Translations under genes and position numbers: made by a program
In this document: positions 22,736-55,859 of the stretch, one piece after another
Position numbering within the stretch: the first letter of the stretch is position 1
Layout: each line of letters begins with the position of its first letter
Assembly (NCBI RefSeq): GCF_017875735.1
Contig: NZ_JAGGMZ010000001.1
Coordinates: forward strand, 2,418,001-2,482,000
DNA: 64,000 nt
Reading direction: 5' to 3'
Source of the DNA: Arthrobacter sp. CAN_C5
Lineage (GTDB): Bacteria > Actinomycetota > Actinomycetes > Actinomycetales > Micrococcaceae
Notes under the pieces: generated by a model
Databases searched by the model: none
What the model saw: only the letters and a program-made list of their open reading frames with translations
Told to the model about the DNA's origin: nothing

Positions 22736-23727
<992 letters not shown>

Positions 23728-23813: not shown

Positions 23814-25340
23814 TCAGTCGACGGTGGTTGCCAGGCGTGGCCCCAGGTCGCGGTACTTGGCGGTCCGCTGGACCAGCAGGTCGTCGATCGGGGCGCCGGC
23901 GAGGGCTGCGAGCTCGTACTCGATGGCTGCCCCCAACCGGAGGCAGAACGCCTTGGCTTCCTCGGCGGCATCGTCGCGCTCATCGACGATGTGGTCCACC
24001 AGCCCGTTCGCGTGCAGTGAGGCCACATTGACTCCCTGGGCCTCGGATAGAGCAGGCGCAAACTCGGTGCTCCGGTGCATGATGGCGCTCGCACCTTCGG
24101 GCGGCAGCGGCGAGAGCCAGGCATGGTGGGCGGCGATGGTCCGGTCGGCGGGGAGTAGCGCCAGCGCCCCTCCCCCGGCCCCCTGGCCCAGCAGCACCGA
24201 GACCGTTGGAGACGCCAGCCCGATCAGGTCATAGAGCGACCGTGCAATCTCGCCGGCAAGCCCGCCCTCCTCAGCTTCCTTCGACAGCGCGGCGCCCGCC
24301 GTGTCAATCACGGTCAGCAGGGGCAGACCGAGTTCCTCGGCCAGCTTCATCCCGCGCCTCGCCTCCCGGAGCGAGGCTGGCCCCATGGCGCTCTCCGGGG
24401 CCGATCGGGACCGGTTGTGGCCCAACACTACGCAGGACTGGTCGCCGAAGCGGGCCAGCGCCAGTTGCAGACCCGGGTCCTTCTCACCCTGCCCGGTGCC
24501 GTTGAGGGGCAGCACATCCTGCGCGGCCCAGGCGAGCAGCCGGCGCAAATCGGGGCGGCGACGGTTCCGGGAGATCTCAATGGACGTCCAGGCGTCGACG
24601 GCAGCAGGTACGACGTCGAGGGTTTCCGGAGGTGCCACCGGCTCGGTGGCCTGTCGGGAGAGCACATTCAGGGCCCGATCGACGATTTCGGGAAGCAGCT
24701 CGGGTGGGACCACCGCGTCGATGAGTCCCTTGTCGTGCAGGTTCTCAGCGACCTGCACGTTCTCCGGGAAAGGAGTGCCGTACAGCGCCTCGTAGACCCG
24801 TGGACCGAGGAACCCGAGCAGAGCGCCAGGTTCGGCGACGGTAACGTGGCCCAGCGACCCCCAGGAGGCCATCACCCCGCCGGTGGTGGGGTGCCGCAGA
24901 TAGACCAGGTAGGGCAACCTGGCCCGGCGGTGGGTGCGGACCGCAGCCGAGATTTTCACCATCGAAAGGAACGCGAGGGTGCCCTCCTGCATTCTGGTAC
25001 CGCCCGACGCCGGTCCCGCCAGCAGCGGAAGTTCCTCACGGGTGGCGCGCTCGATCGCCGCCACGATCCGGTTCGCGGCGGCCAACCCGATGGAACCGGC
25101 AAGGAACCGGAACTCGGACACGATCACTGCGACCCGGCGCCCGCGGATCAGCCCTTCGCCGGTAAGCACCGACTCGTCGACGCCGCTTTTCTCCCGCGCG
25201 GCCTGCAGTTCCCGCTCATACTTTTCGTCGGCGTGCGGGCCGGGGACCGGCTCATCCCAGGAGGCAAAGGTCCCTTGATCGAGGACGACGTCGATCAGTT
25301 CCGCCGCGGTCAGGTGGCGCACCGGCTGGGCCGCCGCCAC
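23814..25340 (-). CDS. Fused acyl-CoA carboxylase carboxyltransferase (AccD-AccA like)
   Basis: A 508-aa protein. The first half is AccD-like (LTGEGLIRGRRVAVIVSEF, the GPASGGTRMQEG loop, GGVMASWGSLGHV) but lacks an N-terminal four-cysteine zinc ribbon; the second half is AccA-like (MKLAEELGLPLLTVIDTAGA, GQGAGGGALALLPADR, LSPLPPEGASAIMHR). No biotin carboxylase or biotin-carrier gene is nearby. GTG 25340 starts one base after the CoA-transferase stop, with GGAGAA upstream. Together with the CoA-transferase and the MatC carrier it suggests malonate-type dicarboxylate metabolism (inference). Confidence 0.85.
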   Translation of the reverse strand: MAAAQPVRHLTAAELIDVVLDQGTFASWDEPVPGPHADEKYERELQAAREKSGVDESVLTGEGLIRGRRVAVIVSEFRFLAGSIGLAAANRIVAAIERATREELPLLAGPASGGTRMQEGTLAFLSMVKISAAVRTHRRARLPYLVYLRHPTTGGVMASWGSLGHVTVAEPGALLGFLGPRVYEALYGTPFPENVQVAENLHDKGLIDAVVPPELLPEIVDRALNVLSRQATEPVAPPETLDVVPAAVDAWTSIEISRNRRRPDLRRLLAWAAQDVLPLNGTGQGEKDPGLQLALARFGDQSCVVLGHNRSRSAPESAMGPASLREARRGMKLAEELGLPLLTVIDTAGAALSKEAEEGGLAGEIARSLYDLIGLASPTVSVLLGQGAGGGALALLPADRTIAAHHAWLSPLPPEGASAIMHRSTEFAPALSEAQGVNVASLHANGLVDHIVDERDDAAEEAKAFCLRLGAAIEYELAALAGAPIDDLLVQRTAKYRDLGPRLATTVD

Positions 25341-25341
25341 G

Positions 25342-26556
25342 CTAGGAGTTCTCCGCCAGGGCGTCGTCGAGCCAGCGCCGGATGTCGGCGCCGTCCTGGT
25401 CCAGCAGGGGTGGGGCGGTGTGGTTGGAGTTGGTGGTCTCCTGTGATGCGCCATCGAAGAACCGTAGCGGCGGTCCGGGGAGGCTGACCTTGCCGAGGAG
25501 TTCGTGCTCGACGTCGATCAGTAGTCCCTGCGATTTGACCTGCTCCCACTCGTAGACCTCATCGAGTGAGCGGACCTTGCCGGCCGGGATTCCTGCCTCG
25601 TTGAGTTTCGCCAGCAACGGTTCGGATTCATAGGCGGCGAAGGCTTTCTCGATCTCGCCGATCAAGAGGTCCCGGTTCCGGACCCGGTCGCCGTTGGTGG
25701 CGAACTCGGCACGGCCGGCGTCGAGCCCGAAGGTGGTGGCGAATTTCTGCCACAGCTTCTCGCTGCCGACGCTGATCTGGACCTTCCCGGCGGCGCAGCT
25801 GAAGAGGCCGTACGGGGCGATGGAGGGGTGGTGGTTGCCCTGTGCCTGCGGCACCTCACCGGCGACGGTGGTCCGGGTGCCCTGGAAGGCATGGACACCA
25901 ACCAGTGCGGCGAGCAGCGAGGTGCGCACCACCTGGCCCATGCCGGTCTTTTCCCGTTCCAGGAGTGCCGCCAGCGCACCGTAGGCTCCGTACATGCCCG
26001 AGAGGAGGTCGGCGATGGGGACGCCGACGCGCTGGGGGTCGTCCGGCCTGGGCCCGGTCAGGGACATCAGGCCTGCTTCGCCCTGCAGGATCTGGTCGTA
26101 GCCGCTCCGGCTGGACTCGGGCCCGTCATGGCCGAAGCCGGTGATTGAGAGGATGACCAGACGGGGGTTGAGCTGATGCATCGCTTCGGTGGAGAACCCC
26201 AGCCGGTCCAGGACTCCGGGTCGGAAGTTCTCGACGACGACGTCGGCCCGCTGAAGGAGCGCCGTCAGGATCTTTTTGCCGTCGTCGCTCTTCAGATCCA
26301 GGGCGATCGATTCCTTATTGCGGTTGCAGGACAGGAAGTAGGTCGCCTGGGGGTTGTCTTCGGGGCCCACGAAGGGTGGGCCCCAACCGCGGGTGTCGTC
26401 GCCGGAACCGGGGTTTTCCACTTTGATCACGCGGGCACCCAGGTCGGCCAGCATCATTCCGGCGTGCGGGCCGGCCAGGGCGCGGCTGAGGTCCACCACG
26501 AGGGTGCCGGCAAGTGGGCCGGATCGCTCTGCGGGGGTGGGGGTAGCTGTGCTCAT
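25342..26556 (-). CDS. CaiB/BaiF class III CoA-transferase
   Basis: A 404-aa protein of the family III CoA-transferases: VVDLSRALAGPHAGMMLADLGARVIKVE at the start, VVVENFRPGVLDRLG, and VGVPIADLLSGMYGAYG containing the catalytic aspartate. These enzymes move CoA between acyl-CoA and a free carboxylic acid. It is the middle gene of the carrier - CoA-transferase - carboxyltransferase run, 59 bases after the carrier and 1 base before the carboxyltransferase. The likely acceptor is the imported dicarboxylate (inference). Confidence 0.92.
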   Translation of the reverse strand: MSTATPTPAERSGPLAGTLVVDLSRALAGPHAGMMLADLGARVIKVENPGSGDDTRGWGPPFVGPEDNPQATYFLSCNRNKESIALDLKSDDGKKILTALLQRADVVVENFRPGVLDRLGFSTEAMHQLNPRLVILSITGFGHDGPESSRSGYDQILQGEAGLMSLTGPRPDDPQRVGVPIADLLSGMYGAYGALAALLEREKTGMGQVVRTSLLAALVGVHAFQGTRTTVAGEVPQAQGNHHPSIAPYGLFSCAAGKVQISVGSEKLWQKFATTFGLDAGRAEFATNGDRVRNRDLLIGEIEKAFAAYESEPLLAKLNEAGIPAGKVRSLDEVYEWEQVKSQGLLIDVEHELLGKVSLPGPPLRFFDGASQETTNSNHTAPPLLDQDGADIRRWLDDALAENS

Positions 26557-26615
26557 GATGTTCTTTCCTCTCAGTGGGGTGGCCGGTTCCGACGTTCAGG
26601 GTCTGAAGCCGAGGC

Positions 26616-27995
26616 TTAGAGCCAGCCCGGAACCACCAGGACCAGCCAGGCGACCAGCGGGCCGACGACGACGATGATGCCGCCGTAGGCAAGGATCTGC
26701 TTGTAGAAGCGGTCCCGGTCGGTGCCCTCGGGTGCATTGGCGAGCACCAGGGCGCCGTTGGTGGAGAACGGCGACACATCGACCACCGTGGAGGCGATCG
26801 AGAGGGCTGCAATGACCCCGATCGCGCCAATTTCGCCGGATTCCAGGAACGGGATGGCCAGCGGGATGAGCGCTGCCAGGATCGCTGTCGAGGAGGCGAA
26901 GGCGGAGACCACTGCCCCGATGTAGCAGATCAGCAGGGCTGCCAGCAGCGGCATGCCGAGGCTGGCCACGCCGTCGGAAACGTACTCGATGGTTCCGGCT
27001 TCCTGCAGGACGCCGACGAAAGTGAGCATGCCGCAGATCAGCAGGACCGTGGACCAGCTGATCTTCTCAACCGCGCCCTTCTGGGACCGTGGCGAGATCA
27101 GTGCGAGGGCGACGGCGACAGTAATGGCGACGAAGCCGACGTCGACCTTGAAGCCGAGGGCGACGACGGCCAGGATGATCAGCCCGGCGATGGTGGCGTA
27201 CTGTGCCAGGGTCTGCTGGGAATCGGTGGCGACAGCGCCGCCGTCGTTCCCTGATGTGGCTTTGCCCTGCAGCGAGTCGGTGCCGGACCCGGTACCGCGG
27301 AAGTCGACGTCGGCGCCCGAGGCGCGGGCTCCCACGCTGGCGCGCATCCGGGCGTCGGCTGCACCTTCGACGAACTGCTCGACGCGGGCGGAGAAGAGCT
27401 TCCGTCCGCCCAGCACCAGGAACAAGACGACGGCGATGAGGAAGTTGAAGATCAGGCTGGAGAGGAAGAGGGCCAACGGGCTGTAGTCGAAGCCCGTGTC
27501 CGCGACGATGCCGTTGACGATGACGCCGTAGACGGCGATGGGCGAGAAGCCGCCCGCCTGTGCACCGTGGACCACCATCATGCCCATCAGGAGGGGGCTG
27601 ATCTTGTGCTTGGCTGCGAAGCCCAGGGCAACGGGAGCCATGATGGCCACGGCGGCGGGGCCAAGCGCGCCGACTGCGGTGATCACACCGGTGATGATGA
27701 ACATGATCCACGGGATCAGGGCCACCCTGCTGCGGACGAGTTTGACCGCTCCGTTGACCAAGAGGTCGATCGTGCCGTTATTTTGGGCGATCGCGAAGAG
27801 ATACGTGACCCCGACCAGGGTCAGGAAGAGACCACCGGGGAAGTTGGCGATGATGTCATCGGTTTCCATGCCGAGGAAGACTGCACCCAGCAGGAAGGCG
27901 CCCACGAAGGCCAGGGCGCCCATGTTGACGGGCAGCAGCGTGGCAATGAGGAACATCGCTGCCAGGATGATGATGGAGAGGAGCGGGACGGACAT
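26616..27995 (-). CDS. MatC-type malonate/dicarboxylate carrier
   Basis: A 459-aa membrane protein with about 11-12 hydrophobic segments. The N-terminal ~150 residues match the MatC_N family: LPVNMGALAFVGAFLLGAVF, FPGGLFLTLVGVTYLFAIAQNNGTID, and LLMGMMVVHGAQAGGFSPIAVYG. A ~55-residue hydrophilic loop (around residue 215-260) separates the two halves. MatC is the carrier of the rhizobial malonate operon matABC. It is the first gene of the run and is divergent from a GntR regulator, the same arrangement as matR-matABC. Confidence 0.88.
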   Translation of the reverse strand: MSVPLLSIIILAAMFLIATLLPVNMGALAFVGAFLLGAVFLGMETDDIIANFPGGLFLTLVGVTYLFAIAQNNGTIDLLVNGAVKLVRSRVALIPWIMFIITGVITAVGALGPAAVAIMAPVALGFAAKHKISPLLMGMMVVHGAQAGGFSPIAVYGVIVNGIVADTGFDYSPLALFLSSLIFNFLIAVVLFLVLGGRKLFSARVEQFVEGAADARMRASVGARASGADVDFRGTGSGTDSLQGKATSGNDGGAVATDSQQTLAQYATIAGLIILAVVALGFKVDVGFVAITVAVALALISPRSQKGAVEKISWSTVLLICGMLTFVGVLQEAGTIEYVSDGVASLGMPLLAALLICYIGAVVSAFASSTAILAALIPLAIPFLESGEIGAIGVIAALSIASTVVDVSPFSTNGALVLANAPEGTDRDRFYKQILAYGGIIVVVGPLVAWLVLVVPGWL

Positions 27996-28058
27996 AGGGC
28001 TTCTTTCGCCGGTGAAAGTGTGATGTGACGCACGTTACCTGCGCACTGGACTAGACTG

Positions 28059-28069
28059 TTAGACACTAA
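28059..28069. promoter_or_regulatory. Possible GntR operator in the matC-like / gntR intergenic region
   Basis: The 11-bp palindrome TTAGACACTAA lies in the 156 bases between the divergent carrier and regulator genes, beside a TAGACT -10-like sequence at 28052-28057. Position suits a FadR-subfamily operator, but the match to any published box is weak. Confidence 0.3.
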
Positions 28070-28151
28070 TCCATTTGTCAATTGTGACCTGGTCCCCGCC
28101 GACCTGCTCGTAGACTGGAAAGACCATTCCCGCCGACGACGAGGACCGCTG

Positions 28152-28853
28152 ATGAACTCACCGCCCGATCCACGGCATCTGGTTCGCGCACCACGGCCAC
28201 GACTGTATGAACAGCTGGTGGAGCAGATTCTCGTCTACATCGAGGAAGCCCAGCTGGGACCTGGCGACCTACTACCAGCCGAGCGCATCCTCGCCGACCA
28301 GCTGGGAGTGTCGAGGGCCACACTGGCGCAGGCGCTGGTGGCCCTGGAGGTGCTGGGCATCATTGATGTGCAACATGGGACGGGTGCCGTGCTGGTCTAC
28401 CGGCCTTCCCTGGCGACGGTGATCAGGAAACTGCGTGAGCACCAGTCCCGGCTGCCCGAGATTGCGGAGGCCCGCAGCACGCTAGAGGTCAAGCTAGCCG
28501 CGCTGGCAGCTGAGCGGCGCACCCCTGAGGATCTGGTGGCGATCGACGCTGCATTGGACGCCATGTCAGGGGAGATCGACGGCGGAGATCGGGGGACGCA
28601 CGGGGATGAGCTGTTCCATCAGGCGGTGACCGCGGCAGCCCACTCCCCCGTGCTGGGGCAGCTGATGGCGTTCATTGCCGAGATGGTGCTGGAAACGCGG
28701 ATTGAGTCGTTAGGCCAGCCGGGCCGGCCTGAACAGTCGTTGAAGTCTCATCGGGTCATTGCCGAGGCGATCCGTTCGCAGGACGCGTCTGCGGCGGCAG
28801 CTGCGATGCAGTCGCACATCGATCTGGTGTCGGATGTCGCGCTCCTGAAGTAG
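28152..28853 (+). CDS. GntR-family (FadR/FCD subfamily) transcriptional regulator
   Basis: A 233-aa regulator. The winged helix is at residues ~15-85 (LLPAERILADQLGVSRATLAQALVALEVLG, then GTGAVLVY) and a helical FCD ligand domain follows, with metal/ligand histidines in DELFHQAVTAAAHSPVLG and the SHRVIAEAI segment. It is transcribed away from the MatC-like carrier operon. MatR of the rhizobial malonate operon is in the same subfamily, so it is probably the local repressor, released by malonate or its CoA ester (inference). Confidence 0.88.
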   Translation: MNSPPDPRHLVRAPRPRLYEQLVEQILVYIEEAQLGPGDLLPAERILADQLGVSRATLAQALVALEVLGIIDVQHGTGAVLVYRPSLATVIRKLREHQSRLPEIAEARSTLEVKLAALAAERRTPEDLVAIDAALDAMSGEIDGGDRGTHGDELFHQAVTAAAHSPVLGQLMAFIAEMVLETRIESLGQPGRPEQSLKSHRVIAEAIRSQDASAAAAAMQSHIDLVSDVALLK

Positions 28854-32394: not shown

Positions 32395-33649
32395 GGCGAG
32401 CTCAAGCGGTCGTTGCAACACCCCTATTGATGTGAGGTGCTGCGTACGTTGTCGAAGAAGGAACGGATCGAGAATGAGGCGCGGTTTTGGGTGTTGATGG
32501 CGCAGGGCTCCACGTTGACGGCGGCGTGTGATGCTGTGGGTGTGAATCGACAAACTGGGCGACGTTGGCGGCAAGCAACCGGTGGGCGGATCCCGCGTGC
32601 CAAGCCGGAGCCGTCGGGTCGGTACCTGTGCCTGGAGGATCGGCTGCGGATTGCCGACCTGCATCTGGCCGGGACCGGCGTGCGGGGGATCGCCCGAGAG
32701 GTGGGGCGGTCGGCCTCGACGGTCAGCCGTGAGCTGCACCGCAACGGCCCCGAACCGGGTCCGCGGGGGCGGGGGAAGTACGCTCCGTATGCTGCCCAGA
32801 AACGGGCCGAGCTCCGCGGACGCCGACCCAAGGCCAGCAAGTTTGATGACTTGGAACTGGCATCCTTAGTACAGGCCAAGTTGTGCGTGAAGTGGAGCCC
32901 CGAGCAGATCAGCGACCACCTCGCCGCGGCGTTCCCAGACCGAGCGGAGATGCAGGTGTGTCCCGAAACGATCTACCAGGCACTGTACGTCCAGGGCCGC
33001 GGTCATTTACGCGCTGACCTGCACCAACACCTGCGCACCGGCCGTGCCATGAGGCGTCCCAGACGCTCCACCGCTGCTAAGAGTTCGGGGAAGATCCCAG
33101 ACATGATCCTGATCAGCGAACGGCCCGCCGAGGTCGCAGACCGCGCCGTCCCTGGCCACTGGGAAGGGGATCTGGTGCTGGGCTCAAACTGCCGCTCGGC
33201 CATCGCCACCCTCGTGGAGCGCCAGACCCGGTTCACGATGCTCATCCACCTGCCCGAGGACCATGGCGCCATCGCGGTCCGTGACGGTCTCCTGGCGGCC
33301 ATCAAGACCCTCCCAGCACACCTGGCTAAGTCGCTGACCTGGGACCAGGGCACCGAGCTGGCCCAGCACCGCCAGATCACCATGGCCACGAAAATGGCCA
33401 TCTACTTTTGCGACCCTCATTCACCGTGGCAGCGGGGCTCCAATGAGAACACGAACGGGTTGCTGCGCCAGTATTTCCCCAAAGGCACAGACCTGTCCGT
33501 GCACTCACCCCAGCGGCTGCTCGAAGTCGCTACCGAACTCAACGACCGGCCCCGCAAAACACTCGGCGGGATCACCCCCGCACAAGCCATGGAACGACTA
33601 CTATTCGAACCAGGCAAACCCATCGTTGCAACGACCGCCTAAATTCGCC
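32395..33649. mobile_element. IS30-family insertion sequence, complete
   Basis: A 1255-bp element. Its 25-bp inverted ends, 32395-32419 and 33625-33649, agree at 21 positions and share GCGGTCGTTGCAAC. It is flanked by the 3-bp direct repeat AAA (32392-32394 and 33650-33652), the duplication size known for IS30. It carries one full transposase gene and lies inside a DUF222-HNH gene. Intact ends, gene and duplication suggest a recent insertion. Confidence 0.92.
32437..33642 (+). CDS. IS30-family transposase
   Basis: A 401-aa transposase. The N-terminal half has HTH segments ([17 protein letters not shown] and [20 protein letters not shown]), the C-terminal half an IS30-type DDE domain with the first Asp in [10 protein letters not shown], the second in [13 protein letters not shown] and Glu in [22 protein letters not shown]. 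The GTG at 32437 lies just inside the left inverted repeat and the stop lies within the right one. It appears intact and likely functional. Confidence 0.95.
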
Positions 33650-40853: not shown

Positions 40854-40976
40854 TGAAATGGCCCCACTTAGGGGACTTTTAGCCGTTTGAAGTGGCCCCA
40901 CCCTCGACCCGCCCGTAGCGTTCTTTTTGTCGGCCAAGACGAAGAGATCGGAACGGGTTTGAAAGAGAGATCGAGA

Positions 40977-42515
40977 GTGAAGCAATTCGAGCGTATCCGC
41001 CTTGATGCGAGGGATAAAGATATGTCGGTCAGAGAGTTGGCACGGGTGCACGGCGTTCACCGCCGTACCGTCCGGGCCGCGTTGGCGGAGGCCACGCCGC
41101 CGGCACGGAAGACGCCGGAGCGGAAGGCTCCGAAGCTGGGGCCCTGGGAGGACACCATCCGGGCCTGGTTGACCGCGGACCAGAAGTCACCGCGCAAACA
41201 GCGCCACACGGCCCGCCGGATCTGGCAGCGGCTGGTCGATGAACACGGCGTCGTGGTTGCCGAGTCCACGGTCGCCCACGCTGTGGCCAGGATCCGCCGC
41301 GGGCTCGTCGACACGCAGGCTGACGTCGCGGTCCCGCAGACCCACACCCCGGGCGGGGAAGCCGAGGTCGATTTCGGCGAGTTCCAGGCCGTGATCGGCG
41401 GCGTGCAGGCGAAGCTGTTCATGTTCGTGATGCGGCTGTCCTACTCCGGACGCGCCGCGCATGTGGCCTACGCGAACCAGTCGCAGGAGTCCTTTCTGGA
41501 CGGGCATAACACCGCGTTCGAACGCTTCGGCGGGATCCCGGCCAAAATGATCCGCTACGACAACCTCAAACCCGCTGTCACCACCGTGATCCTGGGCCGT
41601 GAACGGCTGGAAAACGAACGCTTCATCGCCCTGCGCTCCCATTACGGGTTCGACTCGTTCTTCTGCCTGCCCGGCATCGACGGCGCCCACGAAAAGGGCG
41701 GCGTCGAAGGTGAAGTCGGCAGGTTCCGCCGCCGCTGGCTGACCCCGGTTCCGGAGTTCGATACCCTGGCCGGGCTGAACGCGTATATGGCTGGCTGCGA
41801 TGTCAAAGACGACCACCGCGTCATCACGGGCCGCCCCGTCACCGTCGGTGCCGCGGCAGCGGAGGAAGCCGGCATGCTTCGGCCGTTGCCGGCGGACACG
41901 TTCGAGGCCGCCTCGACGTTCTCGTTCAAGGCCGACCACAAGTCCCAGGTCTGCGTCCGCCAGTCCTACTACTCGGTCCCGGCCCGCTATGCCGGGCGCC
42001 GGGTCAGCGTCCGGCTCGGTGCCCGCACCATCGAGATGTTCGCCGAAGGCGCCCGGATCGCGTCCCACGTCCGGGCCATCCACAAGTATTCCTACGTCCT
42101 GGAACTGGACCACTACCTTGAGGTCCTCACCCGCAAACCCGGCGCCCTGGCCGGGGCAACAGCGCTGATGGCCGCCCGCGCCTCCGGGGCCTTCACCGGA
42201 GCCCACCAGAAATACTGGGACAGGGCCCGGGCCGCGCTCGGCGACAAGGCCGGCACGAAGGCCCTGATCGAGGTCCTGCTGATGGCCCGGACCCTGCCGG
42301 CCGCCGCGGTCACCGGCGCCATGGAGAACGCCGTGAGGACCGGGGACTTCGACCCCGATCATCTGGCCATCGACGCCCGTGCCAGCCAGAGCTTCCACCA
42401 CGTCCCGGCGGCGCTACCTGATGAAGTTTCCGGACGGATCAGGCACCTGCCCGACCGCTGGGAGCCCTCGCTGGCCGGCTATGACGGGCTGCTGGCCGCG
42501 GCGGGCAGCCGATGA
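40977..42515 (+). CDS. istA: IS21 family transposase IstA (nested element)
   Basis: A 512-aa transposase. It opens with an HTH (VKQFERIRLDARDKDMSVRELARVHG then HRRTVRAAL), followed by a DDE integrase core (EVDFGEFQAVIGG, KMIRYDNLKPAV, DGAHEKGGVEGEVGRFRRRW) and a C-terminal beta-rich region (YYSVPARYAGRRVSVRLGAR). GTG 40977 after GAAAGAGAGA is the best start; the frame is open further up into the IS end. Its stop overlaps istB (ATGA). It appears intact. Confidence 0.93.
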   Translation: MKQFERIRLDARDKDMSVRELARVHGVHRRTVRAALAEATPPARKTPERKAPKLGPWEDTIRAWLTADQKSPRKQRHTARRIWQRLVDEHGVVVAESTVAHAVARIRRGLVDTQADVAVPQTHTPGGEAEVDFGEFQAVIGGVQAKLFMFVMRLSYSGRAAHVAYANQSQESFLDGHNTAFERFGGIPAKMIRYDNLKPAVTTVILGRERLENERFIALRSHYGFDSFFCLPGIDGAHEKGGVEGEVGRFRRRWLTPVPEFDTLAGLNAYMAGCDVKDDHRVITGRPVTVGAAAAEEAGMLRPLPADTFEAASTFSFKADHKSQVCVRQSYYSVPARYAGRRVSVRLGARTIEMFAEGARIASHVRAIHKYSYVLELDHYLEVLTRKPGALAGATALMAARASGAFTGAHQKYWDRARAALGDKAGTKALIEVLLMARTLPAAAVTGAMENAVRTGDFDPDHLAIDARASQSFHHVPAALPDEVSGRIRHLPDRWEPSLAGYDGLLAAAGSR

Positions 42516-50967: not shown

Positions 50968-52242
50968 CTACCCCAGTGGCTTCTGCGACAGGATCTGGTC
51001 CACACCCATGCGACCGTCGCGGAAGGTCATCGACGCACCCACCAGGTAGAGCCGCCAGACACGGGCAACTTCCTCGCCCATCATTTCGACTGCCTGATCC
51101 CAGTTCGCCTCGAACCGGTCGTGCCAGGCATCGATGGTGTGGACATAGTGCTCCCGCATGGCTTCAACGCCGCGGATCTCGAACCCGGCGTTCTCGATCA
51201 GGTTGATAGTGTCCCCCACCGACCGCATGTGCATGTCGGGCGCAATGAAGGACTCGATGAACGGGCCACCACCAGGGTTCTTGCCGTGCCGTGACATTTG
51301 CTGGATCAGCACCTTACCGCCGGGCCGCACATTGCGGAACAGCGTTGAGGTGTAGGTTCCGTAGTTCTCCTCGCCGACGTGTTCCCCCATTTCGAGGGAC
51401 GCCACCGCGTCGTAGGGTCCGTCGCTGACCTCGCGGTAGTCCTGGAGCCGGATTTCCACCCGGTCCTGCAGCCCGCGCTCGGCAATCCGCTGATCGATAA
51501 ACGCCTTCTGCTCTTTGGAGATGGTGACCCCGGTGACCTTCGCCCCAAAATGTTCGGCAGCGAACAGGCTCAGCGAGCCCCAGCCGCAGCCGACGTCGAG
51601 GAAGCGCTGCCCGGGCATCGTGTCGAGACCGATTTTGCGGCAGACCTGATCCAGCTTGTCCCGCTGGGCATCCTCGAGCGTGTAGTCAGGATCGTCGGAC
51701 AGCCAGTAGCCGCAGGAGTAGGCCATGTGGTCGTCGAGGATCAGCTCGTAGAAACTGTTGGACAGATCGTAGTGGTGGCTGATGGCCTCCCGGTCGCGCA
51801 GCAGGCTGTGCAGCCTGCCCTTGATCTTCGCCTGCGACGCCGGCGCCGGCAGCGGAGGTCCGAAGACTCCCAGTTCGCGGGCCAGCTTCGTCAGCTGCAG
51901 CACCAGCGACGGGGTCAGCTTCGGCATGGTGAGATCCCGTGACGCCACCACATTCCAGAGATGGGTGAGGGCGTCGTCAAGCGACCCGGGCACATCGACC
52001 TCCCCGGTCACATACGCCTGCGCGGCACCCAACTCCCCCGGGCTCCACAACAGCCGGCGCAACGCATTGGCGCTGTTGATCTGGACTTCGGGCTGACCAA
52101 TTGGTCCGGCCGTGCTGCCGTCCCAGGCGCGGAGATGCACCGGCAGTTCGCCGCCCACTATCGGGTCGAGGATCCGCGCGATCCTGCCGGCGATGTCCTG
52201 ATCGATGCTGGCGGTGTGTCGTGTGGTTTCGGACTGAGTCAA
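50968..52242 (-). CDS. Cyclopropane-fatty-acyl-phospholipid synthase family methyltransferase (distal copy)
   Basis: A 424-aa protein with the CFA-synthase layout: an N-terminal lipid-binding part (residues ~1-130), HHYDLSNSFYELILDDHMAYSCGYW, SAM motif FLDVGCGWGSLSLFAAEHFG, and EMGEHVGEENYGTYT. It acts on unsaturated acyl chains of membrane lipids using SAM. The start is TTG 52242 with CAGGAG 8 bases before, just after the neighbour's stop at 52260; an ATG further up would overlap that gene extensively. It is last in the four-gene operon. Confidence 0.87.
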   Translation of the reverse strand: MTQSETTRHTASIDQDIAGRIARILDPIVGGELPVHLRAWDGSTAGPIGQPEVQINSANALRRLLWSPGELGAAQAYVTGEVDVPGSLDDALTHLWNVVASRDLTMPKLTPSLVLQLTKLARELGVFGPPLPAPASQAKIKGRLHSLLRDREAISHHYDLSNSFYELILDDHMAYSCGYWLSDDPDYTLEDAQRDKLDQVCRKIGLDTMPGQRFLDVGCGWGSLSLFAAEHFGAKVTGVTISKEQKAFIDQRIAERGLQDRVEIRLQDYREVSDGPYDAVASLEMGEHVGEENYGTYTSTLFRNVRPGGKVLIQQMSRHGKNPGGGPFIESFIAPDMHMRSVGDTINLIENAGFEIRGVEAMREHYVHTIDAWHDRFEANWDQAVEMMGEEVARVWRLYLVGASMTFRDGRMGVDQILSQKPLG

Positions 52243-52259
52243 GGGAATGCTCCTGATGG

Positions 52260-53537
52260 TTACGGCCGGCGGTCGAAGATGAGCTGTTGCACGTCGAGGT
52301 AGCCGGACTGGAAGCCGGCCCGCGAGTAGCACAGGTAGAAGCGCCACATCCGCTGGAAGACGTCGTCGAAGCCGAGGGCCGCGACGTCGTCGGCGTGCGC
52401 AAGGAAACGTTCCTCCCACAGCCTGAGGGTTTGCGCGTAGTGGTCGCCCATTGAAAGCCGCTCACGCACCCTCAGGCTCGTATAGCGGTCGGTGATGTCC
52501 TCGATCGCCCGGACCGAGGGGATGAAGCCGCCCGGGAAAATGTACTTGTGGATCCAGGTGTACGACCGGCGGGTCACCATCATTCGCTCGTGCGGCATGG
52601 TGATCGCCTGAATGGCTACCCGGCCGTCAGGAGCGAGCAGCCGGTCGATGGTCTGGAAGTACACGCCCCAGTACTCGTAGCCCACCGCCTCGATCATTTC
52701 CACCGACACAATCGCGTCGTACTGGCCCTCGACGGCGCGGTAATCCTTCAGCTCGATGGTGACCAGGTGGGACAACCCTGCCTCTGCAACGCGCTGCTCA
52801 GCCAGTTCCTTCTGCTCGCTCGACAGGGTCACCGAGACCACTGTGGCCCCGCGGCGGGCGGCACGGATGGCCAGCTCGCCCCAGCCCGTGCCGATCTCCA
52901 GCACCCTGGTTCCCTCGCCGACGTCGGCCTGGTCCAGCAGCCGGTCAACCTTGCGCTGCTGGGCTTCCGGAAGGTCGTCCCACCGCGCATCCAGCAGTTG
53001 TGGCCCATTGGCGTCGAACAGGGCGCTGGAGTAGGACATGGTGTCGTCCAGGAACAGGTTGAACAGGTCGTTGGACAGGTCGTAGTGCCGGGAGATGTTG
53101 GACCGGGTATTGACCTTGGTGTTGCGCTCCTTGCGGGGCGGTTTGGGCAGGTACAGCCCGCGCAGCTTCTGCAGCGGGACCGGCACCAGATGGGCGGCCT
53201 GCGCCGCGAACACCTGCATCACTTCGGTGAGGTCCGACGCCGTCCAGTCCTGCGCCATGTAGGCCTCGCCCAGCCCGATCAGCCCGTTGTCGCCCAGCCG
53301 CGCGAAGAAATCAGCTGGGCGGTGGATCCGCATCTCGGGGCGGGGTCCCCCGCCGGGTGCACCCAGGACCGTCCCGTCGTCGTACAGGACCCGCAACTGC
53401 AACCGGTTCACGGCTGCGGTGAAGATCTTCTCAGCGAGCGCCGCGGCAACCTTGTTCCGGGGGCCCGACGGAACAAGGGCGATACCGGGCCAGTACTGAG
53501 GATCTACGTCTTCCTCGGAACGAACAAGGGTACTCAT
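52260..53537 (-). CDS. Cyclopropane-fatty-acyl-phospholipid synthase family methyltransferase (proximal copy)
   Basis: A 425-aa paralogue. Key stretches are RHYDLSNDLFNLFLDDTMSYSSALF, the SAM motif VLEIGTGWGELAIRAARRGA and SVEMIEAVGYEYWGVYFQTIDRLL, then ITMPHERMMVTRRSYTWIHKYIFPGG. It overlaps the DUF1365 gene by 4 bases. This subtype normally occurs with DUF1365 and FAD amine-oxidase genes; the product may be a methylated or cyclopropane acyl chain, exact reaction unknown. Confidence 0.9.
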   Translation of the reverse strand: MSTLVRSEEDVDPQYWPGIALVPSGPRNKVAAALAEKIFTAAVNRLQLRVLYDDGTVLGAPGGGPRPEMRIHRPADFFARLGDNGLIGLGEAYMAQDWTASDLTEVMQVFAAQAAHLVPVPLQKLRGLYLPKPPRKERNTKVNTRSNISRHYDLSNDLFNLFLDDTMSYSSALFDANGPQLLDARWDDLPEAQQRKVDRLLDQADVGEGTRVLEIGTGWGELAIRAARRGATVVSVTLSSEQKELAEQRVAEAGLSHLVTIELKDYRAVEGQYDAIVSVEMIEAVGYEYWGVYFQTIDRLLAPDGRVAIQAITMPHERMMVTRRSYTWIHKYIFPGGFIPSVRAIEDITDRYTSLRVRERLSMGDHYAQTLRLWEERFLAHADDVAALGFDDVFQRMWRFYLCYSRAGFQSGYLDVQQLIFDRRP

Positions 53538-54289
53538 CGAACTGCCTCCTGCGAATCATGGTGTGGCCTGGTGCGGACGGGCAACCGGCGCATCCAGAGT
53601 TTAACTCCCTGCCACCTGATCTGCGCAGCCGCGCGCAGGGGTGCAACCGGGATGGCGGTGATCATGCGGACAACGTTGCCGGTCGTGGCTGGCAGGCGGT
53701 GGCCCGCCATCGTTGCGATAAAGGGGGATTGACCATCCCGGTGCAGGGTAATTGCGATGGTGAGCCGTTCAGCCGGTTCCGGGACACGCATCTCGTAACT
53801 GCCCGAGACGTCGTTAAACGGCGACACATAGAACGCCTTCTCGGTGACAGCGCGGCCCACCAGGTCCGGATCCAGCAGGTAGCAGTGCCGCTCCCCGTAG
53901 GTGTTGTGCACCTCGGCGATCACCGCGGCCAGTGTCCCGTCGGTGCGGTGGCACCAGAACAGGCTCAGGGGGTTGAACACGTGCCCGAGCACCCGGCCGC
54001 TGGTCAGCATGGTGACGGTTCCGCCGTCGTCGTCGATACCCTGGGTCGCCAGATAGGTGGCGACGTTGGACCGGATCGAGCGCTCCGGGTCCCCCAGATG
54101 GTCGGCGGCGGAGAACACCGCGAACGGCCGCAGCCACCTTGGGAGCTGTGGGAGGTCATCCAGGTTCACGAACCAGCTGTAGCTGCGGTAGGTGAACTCA
54201 TTGTGTAGCGGCGACCGGCGCACATGCCGGATCGTCGTCGGGTACAGGGCGGACGGGCTTGGGTCCGCGGGGTAGGAAGCAGGGCTCAT
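53534..54289 (-). CDS. DUF1365 family protein
   Basis: A 251-aa protein: TIRHVRRSPLHNEFTYRSYSWFVNLDDLP, VTMLTSGRVLGHVFNPLSLFWCHR, VIAEVHNTYGERHCYLL and KAFYVSPFNDVSGSYEMRV, all DUF1365 landmarks. The domain has no proven activity, but it is nearly always beside a FAD-dependent amine-oxidase-like gene and a CFA-synthase-like gene. Overlaps of 4 bases on each side show a tight operon. Confidence 0.92.
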   Translation of the reverse strand: MSPASYPADPSPSALYPTTIRHVRRSPLHNEFTYRSYSWFVNLDDLPQLPRWLRPFAVFSAADHLGDPERSIRSNVATYLATQGIDDDGGTVTMLTSGRVLGHVFNPLSLFWCHRTDGTLAAVIAEVHNTYGERHCYLLDPDLVGRAVTEKAFYVSPFNDVSGSYEMRVPEPAERLTIAITLHRDGQSPFIATMAGHRLPATTGNVVRMITAIPVAPLRAAAQIRWQGVKLWMRRLPVRTRPHHDSQEAVR

Positions 54290-55659
54290 GACGGAACGTC
54301 CACCACTGCAACCTCGAGCGGTTCGGCGTCCCAGGAACCGCCGAGACGTTCAGCCGCCCGGAGCCCGGAGAGGGCCCCGTCCTCATGGAAACCCCACCCG
54401 TGATAGGCGCCGGCGAAGGCGATCCGCTCGTCGCTGAGATCGGCCAGGCGGCGTTGCGCGGCGAGCGACGACGGCGTGTACTGCGGGTGCTCGTAGGTCA
54501 TTGATTCCAGTACCGACTCCGGGGCAATCTCGTCGCGCTCACCAAGACTGACGAGGAACCGGTGCGCGGTGCGCCCCTCCAGCCGCTGCAGCCGTGTCAG
54601 GTCGTAGGTGACCAGGACCCGGTCGGGGCTCGCCTCGCAGGACGGCAGCCGGTAGTTCCACGAGGACCGGACGGCGTCGGTCCGCGGCAGTACCGATTCG
54701 TCGGTGTGGAAGAGCGTGTGGTTTGTCGAGTACGGCAGATCGCCCAGCACCTGCCTCTCGAGCGGGCCGGCCTCCCCCAGCATGGCGAGCGCCTGGTGCG
54801 GGTGAGTCGCGATCACAGCCGCATCATAGGTTTCGGTCTCGCCGTTGGAGGTGACGACGACGCCGTCCCCTGCCTTTCGCACCCCGGCGACGGGCGATCC
54901 GAGCCGCACGTCCTCGATGTGATCGAGGACCCGGCTCACGTACTCTCCCGACCCGCCCGTCACGGTGCGCCACTGCGGCGACCCCTTGATGGTGAGCATT
55001 CCGTGGTGCGACATGAAGGAAAACAGGTACCGCGCCGGATAGGCGAGCGCCGTCGACGGGTCGCAGGACCACACCGCGGACACTACGGGGGTCATGAAGT
55101 GGGAGGTGAAGTACTGGCTGAACCGTCCCCGGGCGAGGAACTCACCGAGGGTCATTCCATCGTCTGCGCCGGTAGCCTCCAGGAGTGCACGGGCGTTGCG
55201 CTGGAAACGGAGAACCTCGAGCAACATTTTGAGGTACCTGCCGCGGCGCAACACTCCCAGCTGACCGAATACCCCGCGCCTGCCCTTGGCCCCGGCGTAC
55301 TCGAGCCCGCAACCATCGCACCGGACCGACATGGTCATGTCGGAGTCCTGGGTGGGAACGCCCAGTTCGTCAAAGAGCCGTAACAGCGTCGGGTAGGTAC
55401 GGTCGTTGTGGACAATGAACCCGGTGTCGACACCTGACGTAGTACCGTCGGCCATCGGCATCTGGTGGGTATGGGCATGGCCACCGGCGCGGCGGTCGGC
55501 CTCGTAGAGGGTGACCGAGTGGTGACGGCTCAGCACATAGGCGGCGGTCAGCCCCGCCACGCCGCTGCCGACGACGGCGACCCGGCGGCGGACGCCCGGC
55601 TCGCTGGAGCCGGCGTCGGGCGTGTCAAGGTCCGGCGTGCCATGCTGTTGCTCAGTCAT
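54286..55659 (-). CDS. FAD-dependent amine-oxidase-like oxidoreductase
   Basis: A 457-aa flavoprotein. The Rossmann motif VAVVGSGVAGLTAAYVLSRHHSVTLYEADRRAGGHAHT is at residues ~27-64, GVDTGFIVHNDRTYP follows, and the C-terminal FAD motif is in ERIAFAGAYHGWGFHEDGALSGLRAAERL. The conserved GWGFHEDG is typical of the group linked to DUF1365. It may desaturate or oxidise lipid acyl chains (inference). ATG 55659 with GCGGAGGAG is the start. It is the first gene of the operon and divergent from a LysR gene. Confidence 0.9.
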   Translation of the reverse strand: MTEQQHGTPDLDTPDAGSSEPGVRRRVAVVGSGVAGLTAAYVLSRHHSVTLYEADRRAGGHAHTHQMPMADGTTSGVDTGFIVHNDRTYPTLLRLFDELGVPTQDSDMTMSVRCDGCGLEYAGAKGRRGVFGQLGVLRRGRYLKMLLEVLRFQRNARALLEATGADDGMTLGEFLARGRFSQYFTSHFMTPVVSAVWSCDPSTALAYPARYLFSFMSHHGMLTIKGSPQWRTVTGGSGEYVSRVLDHIEDVRLGSPVAGVRKAGDGVVVTSNGETETYDAAVIATHPHQALAMLGEAGPLERQVLGDLPYSTNHTLFHTDESVLPRTDAVRSSWNYRLPSCEASPDRVLVTYDLTRLQRLEGRTAHRFLVSLGERDEIAPESVLESMTYEHPQYTPSSLAAQRRLADLSDERIAFAGAYHGWGFHEDGALSGLRAAERLGGSWDAEPLEVAVVDVPS

Positions 55660-55859
55660 CTGCGCTCCTCCGCGTAGGTTTGCGTAAGGCGTCCAGCCGG
55701 TCGATCCGACCGTCCGGCACCTCACCACAGGCCTCCCAAAAGGAAAACGCCTGTTGTAAATATAGTTTGGTTATTGTTCGGAGACGGTTCATTCCCGGAT
55801 TGGTGCCCCAGCCAGGGCCGAGGATCGCGAATGGCCCTCCGCTGCGGAAAGGAGTGCCA

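Follow-up and report, generated by a model that had tools for sequence, protein, structure and literature searches.

Organisation of the locus

The locus studied here is a four-gene unit of Arthrobacter sp. CAN_C5 for which a role in the catabolism of malonate, or of a very similar acid, is proposed. It lies in a stretch of 64,000 nucleotides (contig NZ_JAGGMZ010000001.1, positions 2,418,001 to 2,482,000; hereafter the window) that is part of a single-contig actinobacterial genome of 3.86 Mb. Three genes are on the reverse strand and encode a MatC-type dicarboxylate carrier of 459 residues (26616-27995; MatC_N 1.7e-58, CitMHS 1.3e-33), a class III (CaiB) CoA-transferase of 404 residues (25342-26556; CoA_transf_3, PF02515, 1.2e-115) and an AccD-AccA-like fused carboxyltransferase (CT) of 508 residues (23814-25340), which is the proposed malonyl-CoA decarboxylase. 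The fourth gene, on the forward strand and divergent from the others, encodes a GntR/FCD regulator of the FadR subfamily with 233 residues (28152-28853; Pfam GntR 1.6e-14, FCD 4.1e-28). All four genes were found where the initial annotation had placed them, with Pfam matches to each. A search of PDB sequences with MatC gave no match.

The open reading frame (ORF) of the CT as called covers 23814-25454 on the reverse strand, with matches to Carboxyl_trans (1.9e-49) and ACCA (3.1e-45). The frame is open from 25454, and the start common to the relatives is a GTG at 25340, one base past the CaiB stop codon (TAG, 25344-25342). With this start the apparent 113-base overlap with CaiB disappears. The CT start is located at most 6 bases from the CaiB stop in 16 of the 19 loci checked, and coupling of this kind was seen in Arthrobacter, Cryobacterium, Agreia, Herbidospora and Mycobacterium. 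As far as the sequence tells, CaiB and CT are translationally coupled.

Conservation and neighbourhoods of the gene set

Orthologues of the CT are present in 24 of 38 congeners as well as in many actinobacterial families, the nearest named relative being that of Arthrobacter sp. H20 (91%). Neighbourhoods were counted at the 106 CT loci with readable flanks. CaiB adjoins the CT in 66 of them, and the set of CaiB, MatC and GntR is found in 31; since close relatives are over-represented and the genomes are not independent, these counts are descriptive only. The arrangement is not due to chance, because CT orthologues occur in so many congeners and CaiB, MatC and GntR recur alongside in dozens of genomes.

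The initial annotation had suggested looking at the conservation of this gene set, and the four genes do stand together in several families, namely Micrococcaceae, Microbacteriaceae and Nocardiopsidaceae, and in Mycobacterium. The full divergent arrangement was found in Arthrobacter, Pseudarthrobacter, Cryobacterium, Glutamicibacter, Paeniglutamicibacter and Tersicoccus, and also in one Microbacteriaceae metagenome-assembled genome and in Mycobacterium sp. AT1. In Nocardiopsidaceae the order is GntR-MatC-CT-CaiB, so the set is kept despite rearrangement. Moreover, the linkage to CaiB extends to deeply branching members of the CT clade. The operon and the CaiB-CT partnership are well supported.

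The pair is accompanied by varied genes at other loci. It stands beside TctABC at L065, and directly beside HyuA-HyuB (hydantoinase/oxoprolinase A and B) and an amidase at L064 (10785-16389); L071 and L072 carry genes that clustering identified as homologous to these L064 neighbours, and HyuAB is directly beside the pair at L158 and L164 as well. At these five loci HyuAB may feed malonate into the pathway from a cyclic amide. In Agreia (L168) the pair is found with a carboxylesterase and Opp genes, and at L162 with DUF5058 and an M20 hydrolase. All these neighbours fit the uptake or release of small acids (dicarboxylates). In Brevibacterium the neighbours are housekeeping genes and are uninformative. 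An amidase next to CaiB at L092 was considered as a malonamidase E2, but this match was weak (84.8 bits) and far behind GatA and others, so the gene is unusable as evidence for malonate. Two CaiB-CT pairs are plasmid-borne, on pYJN5-2 of Paenarthrobacter (L172) and on pUSK13_1 of Rhodococcus (L174), and one plasmid was typed as conjugative.

The CoA-transferase and the regulator

The closest relatives of the CaiB protein are dicarboxylate CoA-transferases (SUGCT, YfdE and the succinate-glutarate family), and among NCBIfam models it matches succinate-glutarate CoA-transferase best. The catalytic residue Asp183 is conserved and in register with SUGCT and YfdE in a whole-length alignment. The nearest solved relatives of known activity also act on dicarboxylates.

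Regarding the regulator, about 30 loci have its orthologue in divergent orientation to MatC. In most relatives the GntR-MatC intergenic region contains TTGACA followed, about 21 bases downstream, by the block RGGCTAGKCCASTGAGCCAGT; in a sigma-70 scan at strict consensus, no promoter was detected there. The operator block precedes matC in 28 loci. The copy of the window, ACAGTCTAGTCCAGTGCGCAGGTAA (28035-28059, reverse strand), scored 23.3 bits with a matrix made from 28 other loci, with the window excluded and the close relative L114 in the training set, and the runner-up in 16 kb reached 10.1 bits. The core reads TGGC-TAG-GCCA in the relatives and AGTC-TAG-TCCA, a degenerate form, in the window. 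Palindromes of the FadR subfamily consist of TKGT and ACMA boxes whose GT and AC are usually 3 nt apart (PMC4494728), and the core of the relatives resembles them with C/G for T/A. We infer from the sequence that the GntR/FCD regulator binds this block. Furthermore, where matC is separate or absent, the motif is found directly upstream of CaiB (L058, L136) or of the CT (L134), which ties the regulator to CaiB and the CT and not to the carrier alone.

The fused carboxyltransferase

The CT has the AccD/AccA (crotonase-type) fold in both halves of its AlphaFold 2 model (predicted local distance difference test, 88). The C half aligns with AccA at Z 36 and about 30% identity, both halves align with PccB-type chains at Z of about 30, and the best Foldseek matches are transcarboxylase 12S and PccB-type chains. 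MdcD and MdcE, the CT-fold subunits of malonate decarboxylase (Mdc), are absent among the 50 structural matches listed, although the CT may be similar to them. The modelled fold, as such, cannot tell a decarboxylase from a carboxylase. The acyl-CoA-binding half retains the conserved SGG and GG elements. By profile, the CT falls under the NCBIfam equivalog cut-offs for accD (172.8 vs 317.45) and accA (152.1 vs 357), and also under those for MdcD (45.6 vs 278 bits) and MdcE (26.2 vs 237 bits).

The initial annotation described a fusion without a zinc ribbon or a nearby biotin carboxylase, and this holds for the whole family. There is no CxxC anywhere in the CT, which has two cysteines in the entire protein. 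No biotin carboxylase gene was found near the CT in any of the 106 neighbourhoods, vs 6 of 7 AccDA-like controls under the same search. These controls belong to a set of 20 more distant CT fusions of the same phylum; six of the seven were recognised by two CxxC pairs and the remaining one (L200) by the canonical AccA motif. The window itself contains no biotinyl/lipoyl domain, and about 68 kb separate its right end from the nearest one in the genome.

The signature motifs GA[YF][CP]G, AEERGQ and GGSGG are retained in all seven AccDA-like controls. In the family of the window CT, DTxGAALSxxAEEGGL stands in place of the AccA loop DTPGAYPGxxAEERGQ. The second glycine of this loop is Ser or Thr, and the serine of GGSGG is Gly, in 107 of 107 sequences. 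In a maximum-likelihood tree, this family and the AccDA fusions form separate clades, each fully supported. The lack of a linked biotin carboxylase, the altered motifs and the separate clade, taken together, argue against a normal acetyl-CoA carboxylase and make biotin independence plausible.

A second zinc-less CT clade stands beside this family (L190-L192, L194-L196, L199 and L201-L206). It has no linked biotin carboxylase, and most of its members carry the loop DTPGADPSxxSE.

Stand-alone carboxyltransferases and mycobacterial AccD3

Several genomes, among them those of Mycobacteriales, contain the CT as a stand-alone gene. In mycobacterial-type genomes this orthologue has 57-59% identity to the window CT, and in Mycobacteriales it adjoins an enoyl-CoA hydratase gene and has a P-type ATPase gene nearby. 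The gene of AccD3 of Mycobacterium, Rv0904c, likewise adjoins an enoyl-CoA hydratase gene, Rv0905 (PMC5501465). By this common neighbour, AccD3 and its corynebacterial homologues are probably members of the CT family. AccD3, an orphan protein, has less than 20% identity to other AccD proteins, and in pull-downs it bound no partner, biotin-carrying subunits included (PMC4347857). Unlike the CT of the window, it is encoded without CaiB, MatC and GntR. Apart from G074, the searched genomes of the stand-alone group gave no CaiB orthologue; the substrate of AccD3 would therefore be malonyl-CoA of endogenous origin, or something else.

Besides the complete GntR-MatC-CaiB-CT operon (L058), genome G074 has another copy of the CT. 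It also has a 588-residue open frame (L084) that joins MdcD-like and MdcE-like halves.

Proposed pathway

No further complete route for malonate is evident in the genome: the malonyl-CoA decarboxylase (MCD) of the MatA family (PF05292) had no match in it, in a search that was positive in 3 of 296 actinobacterial genomes; no Mdc gamma subunit was above the cut-off; and the best match to the ligase MatB (394 bits vs a cut-off of 558) is away from the locus, where there is no MatB ORF. This agrees with the initial annotation, which had described MatB and MatA as replaced at the locus. As for MdcC and its modifying enzymes, there is no room for a further gene in the operon, and no dedicated search for them was made.

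On balance we lean towards an operon that is induced by its substrate and serves the breakdown of malonate, or of a 2-carboxy acid very close to it. It would be an analogue of Mdc that works with CoA and has a biotin-free CT. MatC would import malonate, and CaiB would transfer CoA from acetyl-CoA to it, yielding malonyl-CoA and acetate. The CT would then convert malonyl-CoA to acetyl-CoA and CO2 in an oxyanion-hole active site, with no biotin carrier, and regenerate the CoA donor. The net conversion would be malonate to acetate and CO2, with activation that requires no ATP. The divergent FCD regulator would control the unit through the conserved operator before matC, the sign of this control being presumed. 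The substrate, the CoA donor and the direct decarboxylation are steps that we infer, acetyl-CoA being assigned as the donor because the cycle must close. CTs of the AccD/AccA type act on acetyl-CoA and malonyl-CoA, and this substrate pair favours malonate over methylmalonate.

The precedent for such chemistry is Mdc, where MdcA loads the acetylated carrier MdcC with malonate, which the CT-fold pair MdcD-MdcE decarboxylates without biotin; the same pair also decarboxylates malonyl-CoA without biotin, with a kcat of 2.3 per s (PMC5534430). In the proposed pathway CaiB would take the role of MdcA and the CT that of MdcD and MdcE, and free CoA would replace the dedicated carrier protein. The initial annotation had suggested CoA transfer to an imported dicarboxylate followed by loss of the carboxyl group, and this part remains the best fit for a conserved, co-regulated module; its picture of a rebuilt mat operon was overstated.

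Some observations weigh against this proposal. FCD regulators and carriers of the MatC family serve many acids. The C half of the CT is still clearly AccA-like, in contrast to the far-diverged MdcE, and this leaves room for carboxybiotin binding. The CT does not conserve the putative malonyl-contact residues of MdcE (Gln100, Tyr102 and Ser142) as such. In addition, the stand-alone CT genomes without CaiB indicate that the CT is also useful without the transferase.

A broader proposal, which we put forward tentatively and with more doubt than confidence, is that the fused CTs make up a hitherto undescribed type of malonyl-CoA decarboxylase that requires neither biotin nor a carrier protein. CaiB and the CT would then add one more malonate-degrading system to Mat, Mdc and Mad, with mycobacterial AccD3 as a stand-alone member of the CT family that consumes malonyl-CoA and does not make it. 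AccD3, assigned to lipid synthesis by its name, would in that case work the other way round, and corrections would be due in many genome annotations and metabolic models. The CT may merit a family of its own if it is proven to be biotin-free.

Alternative explanations

The CT could also move the carboxyl group of malonyl-CoA to the biotin of a general biotin carboxyl carrier protein (BCCP), supplied by the acyl-CoA carboxylase alpha chains of the genome, working as a transcarboxylase or allowing ATP recovery through reverse biotin carboxylase. Genes for biotin carboxylase and BCCP chains are present at other places in the genome, and the AccA fold and overall similarity of the C half, together with the transcarboxylase 12S and PccB-type chains among the best Foldseek matches, are in line with this route. 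Nevertheless, it is unlikely, though it deserves serious attention, given the family-wide change of the AccA signature loop, the lack of a linked biotin carboxylase throughout the neighbourhoods and the pull-downs in which AccD3 bound no biotin-carrying subunit (PMC4347857).

Another explanation keeps the chemistry and changes the acid, so that methylmalonate, tartronate or a substituted malonate would be imported, activated and decarboxylated. The CaiB family is broad, with succinate-glutarate CoA-transferase as the best NCBIfam match here, and the HyuAB, amidase, M20 hydrolase or carboxylesterase genes beside the pair suggest varied parent compounds. On the other hand, the CT is of the AccD/AccA type and not of the propionyl-CoA carboxylase type, and the carrier belongs to the MatC family; we therefore regard another acid as improbable. 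Finally, it is very improbable that the CT serves a separate, malonyl-CoA-forming acyl-CoA carboxylase as its carboxyltransferase and has just an incidental place in the operon: Pfam and fold do group it with the carboxyltransferases of acetyl-CoA carboxylase, but it lies under the accD and accA cut-offs, has neither zinc ribbon nor linked biotin carboxylase, is translationally coupled to CaiB and shares an operator with it in distant lineages.

Comparison with known systems

By analogy, the chemistry of the proposed malonate module would be closer to Mdc than to Mat. It has in common with Mdc the cyclic logic of a transferase and a CT-fold decarboxylase, and MdcD is homologous to the N half of the CT. 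In contrast, Mdc uses MdcA where the window has a class III CoA-transferase, and it possesses a dedicated acyl carrier protein with modifying enzymes for which the operon has no room. The window CT is also one fused chain, whose halves are far closer to AccD/AccA than to MdcD/MdcE.

With the rhizobial mat locus (MatR-MatC-MatB-MatA) the unit shares only the carrier family and the GntR regulator superfamily. The rhizobial system relies on the ligase MatB and on MatA, which has the MCD fold; the operon has neither, with activation by CoA transfer and an unrelated putative decarboxylase in their place. It is better described as an independent module, since the CaiB-CT pair is found elsewhere with other transporters and hydrolases.

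A similar order of reactions is known in oxalate catabolism, in which formyl-CoA transferase, a class III CoA-transferase, is followed by oxalyl-CoA decarboxylase acting on the CoA ester. The latter is a thiamine diphosphate enzyme, whereas the CT has the crotonase/CT fold. AccD/AccA and the fused AccDA proteins resemble the CT in fold (C half Z of about 36) and domain order; they have the zinc ribbon, the AccA signature and a linked biotin carboxylase, and the CT is without all three.

No published malonate system composed of CaiB and a CT was found in full-text literature searches, whose coverage leaves out most subscription papers. The gene set is widespread in soil actinobacteria and looks like a simplified form of malonate utilisation. 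From it one would expect common soil actinobacteria without the known systems to use malonate by an ATP-free route. For a protein family whose present name comes from acetyl-CoA carboxylase subunits, it also offers a single biochemical prediction that can be tested.

Other features of the window

Just past the end of the CT gene (22736-23727) there are an ORF for a CsoR-type metal-sensitive repressor and a divergent ORF for a rhodanese/YgaP-like protein, which overlap as called. To the right of the operon, transposase ORFs are located at 32437-33642 and 40887-42515 (IS30-like by eye; Mu-transpos_C_2 by Pfam). Further on, at 50968-55728 on the reverse strand, genes for an amine oxidase, a DUF1365 protein and two cyclopropane-synthase-type methyltransferases are clustered.

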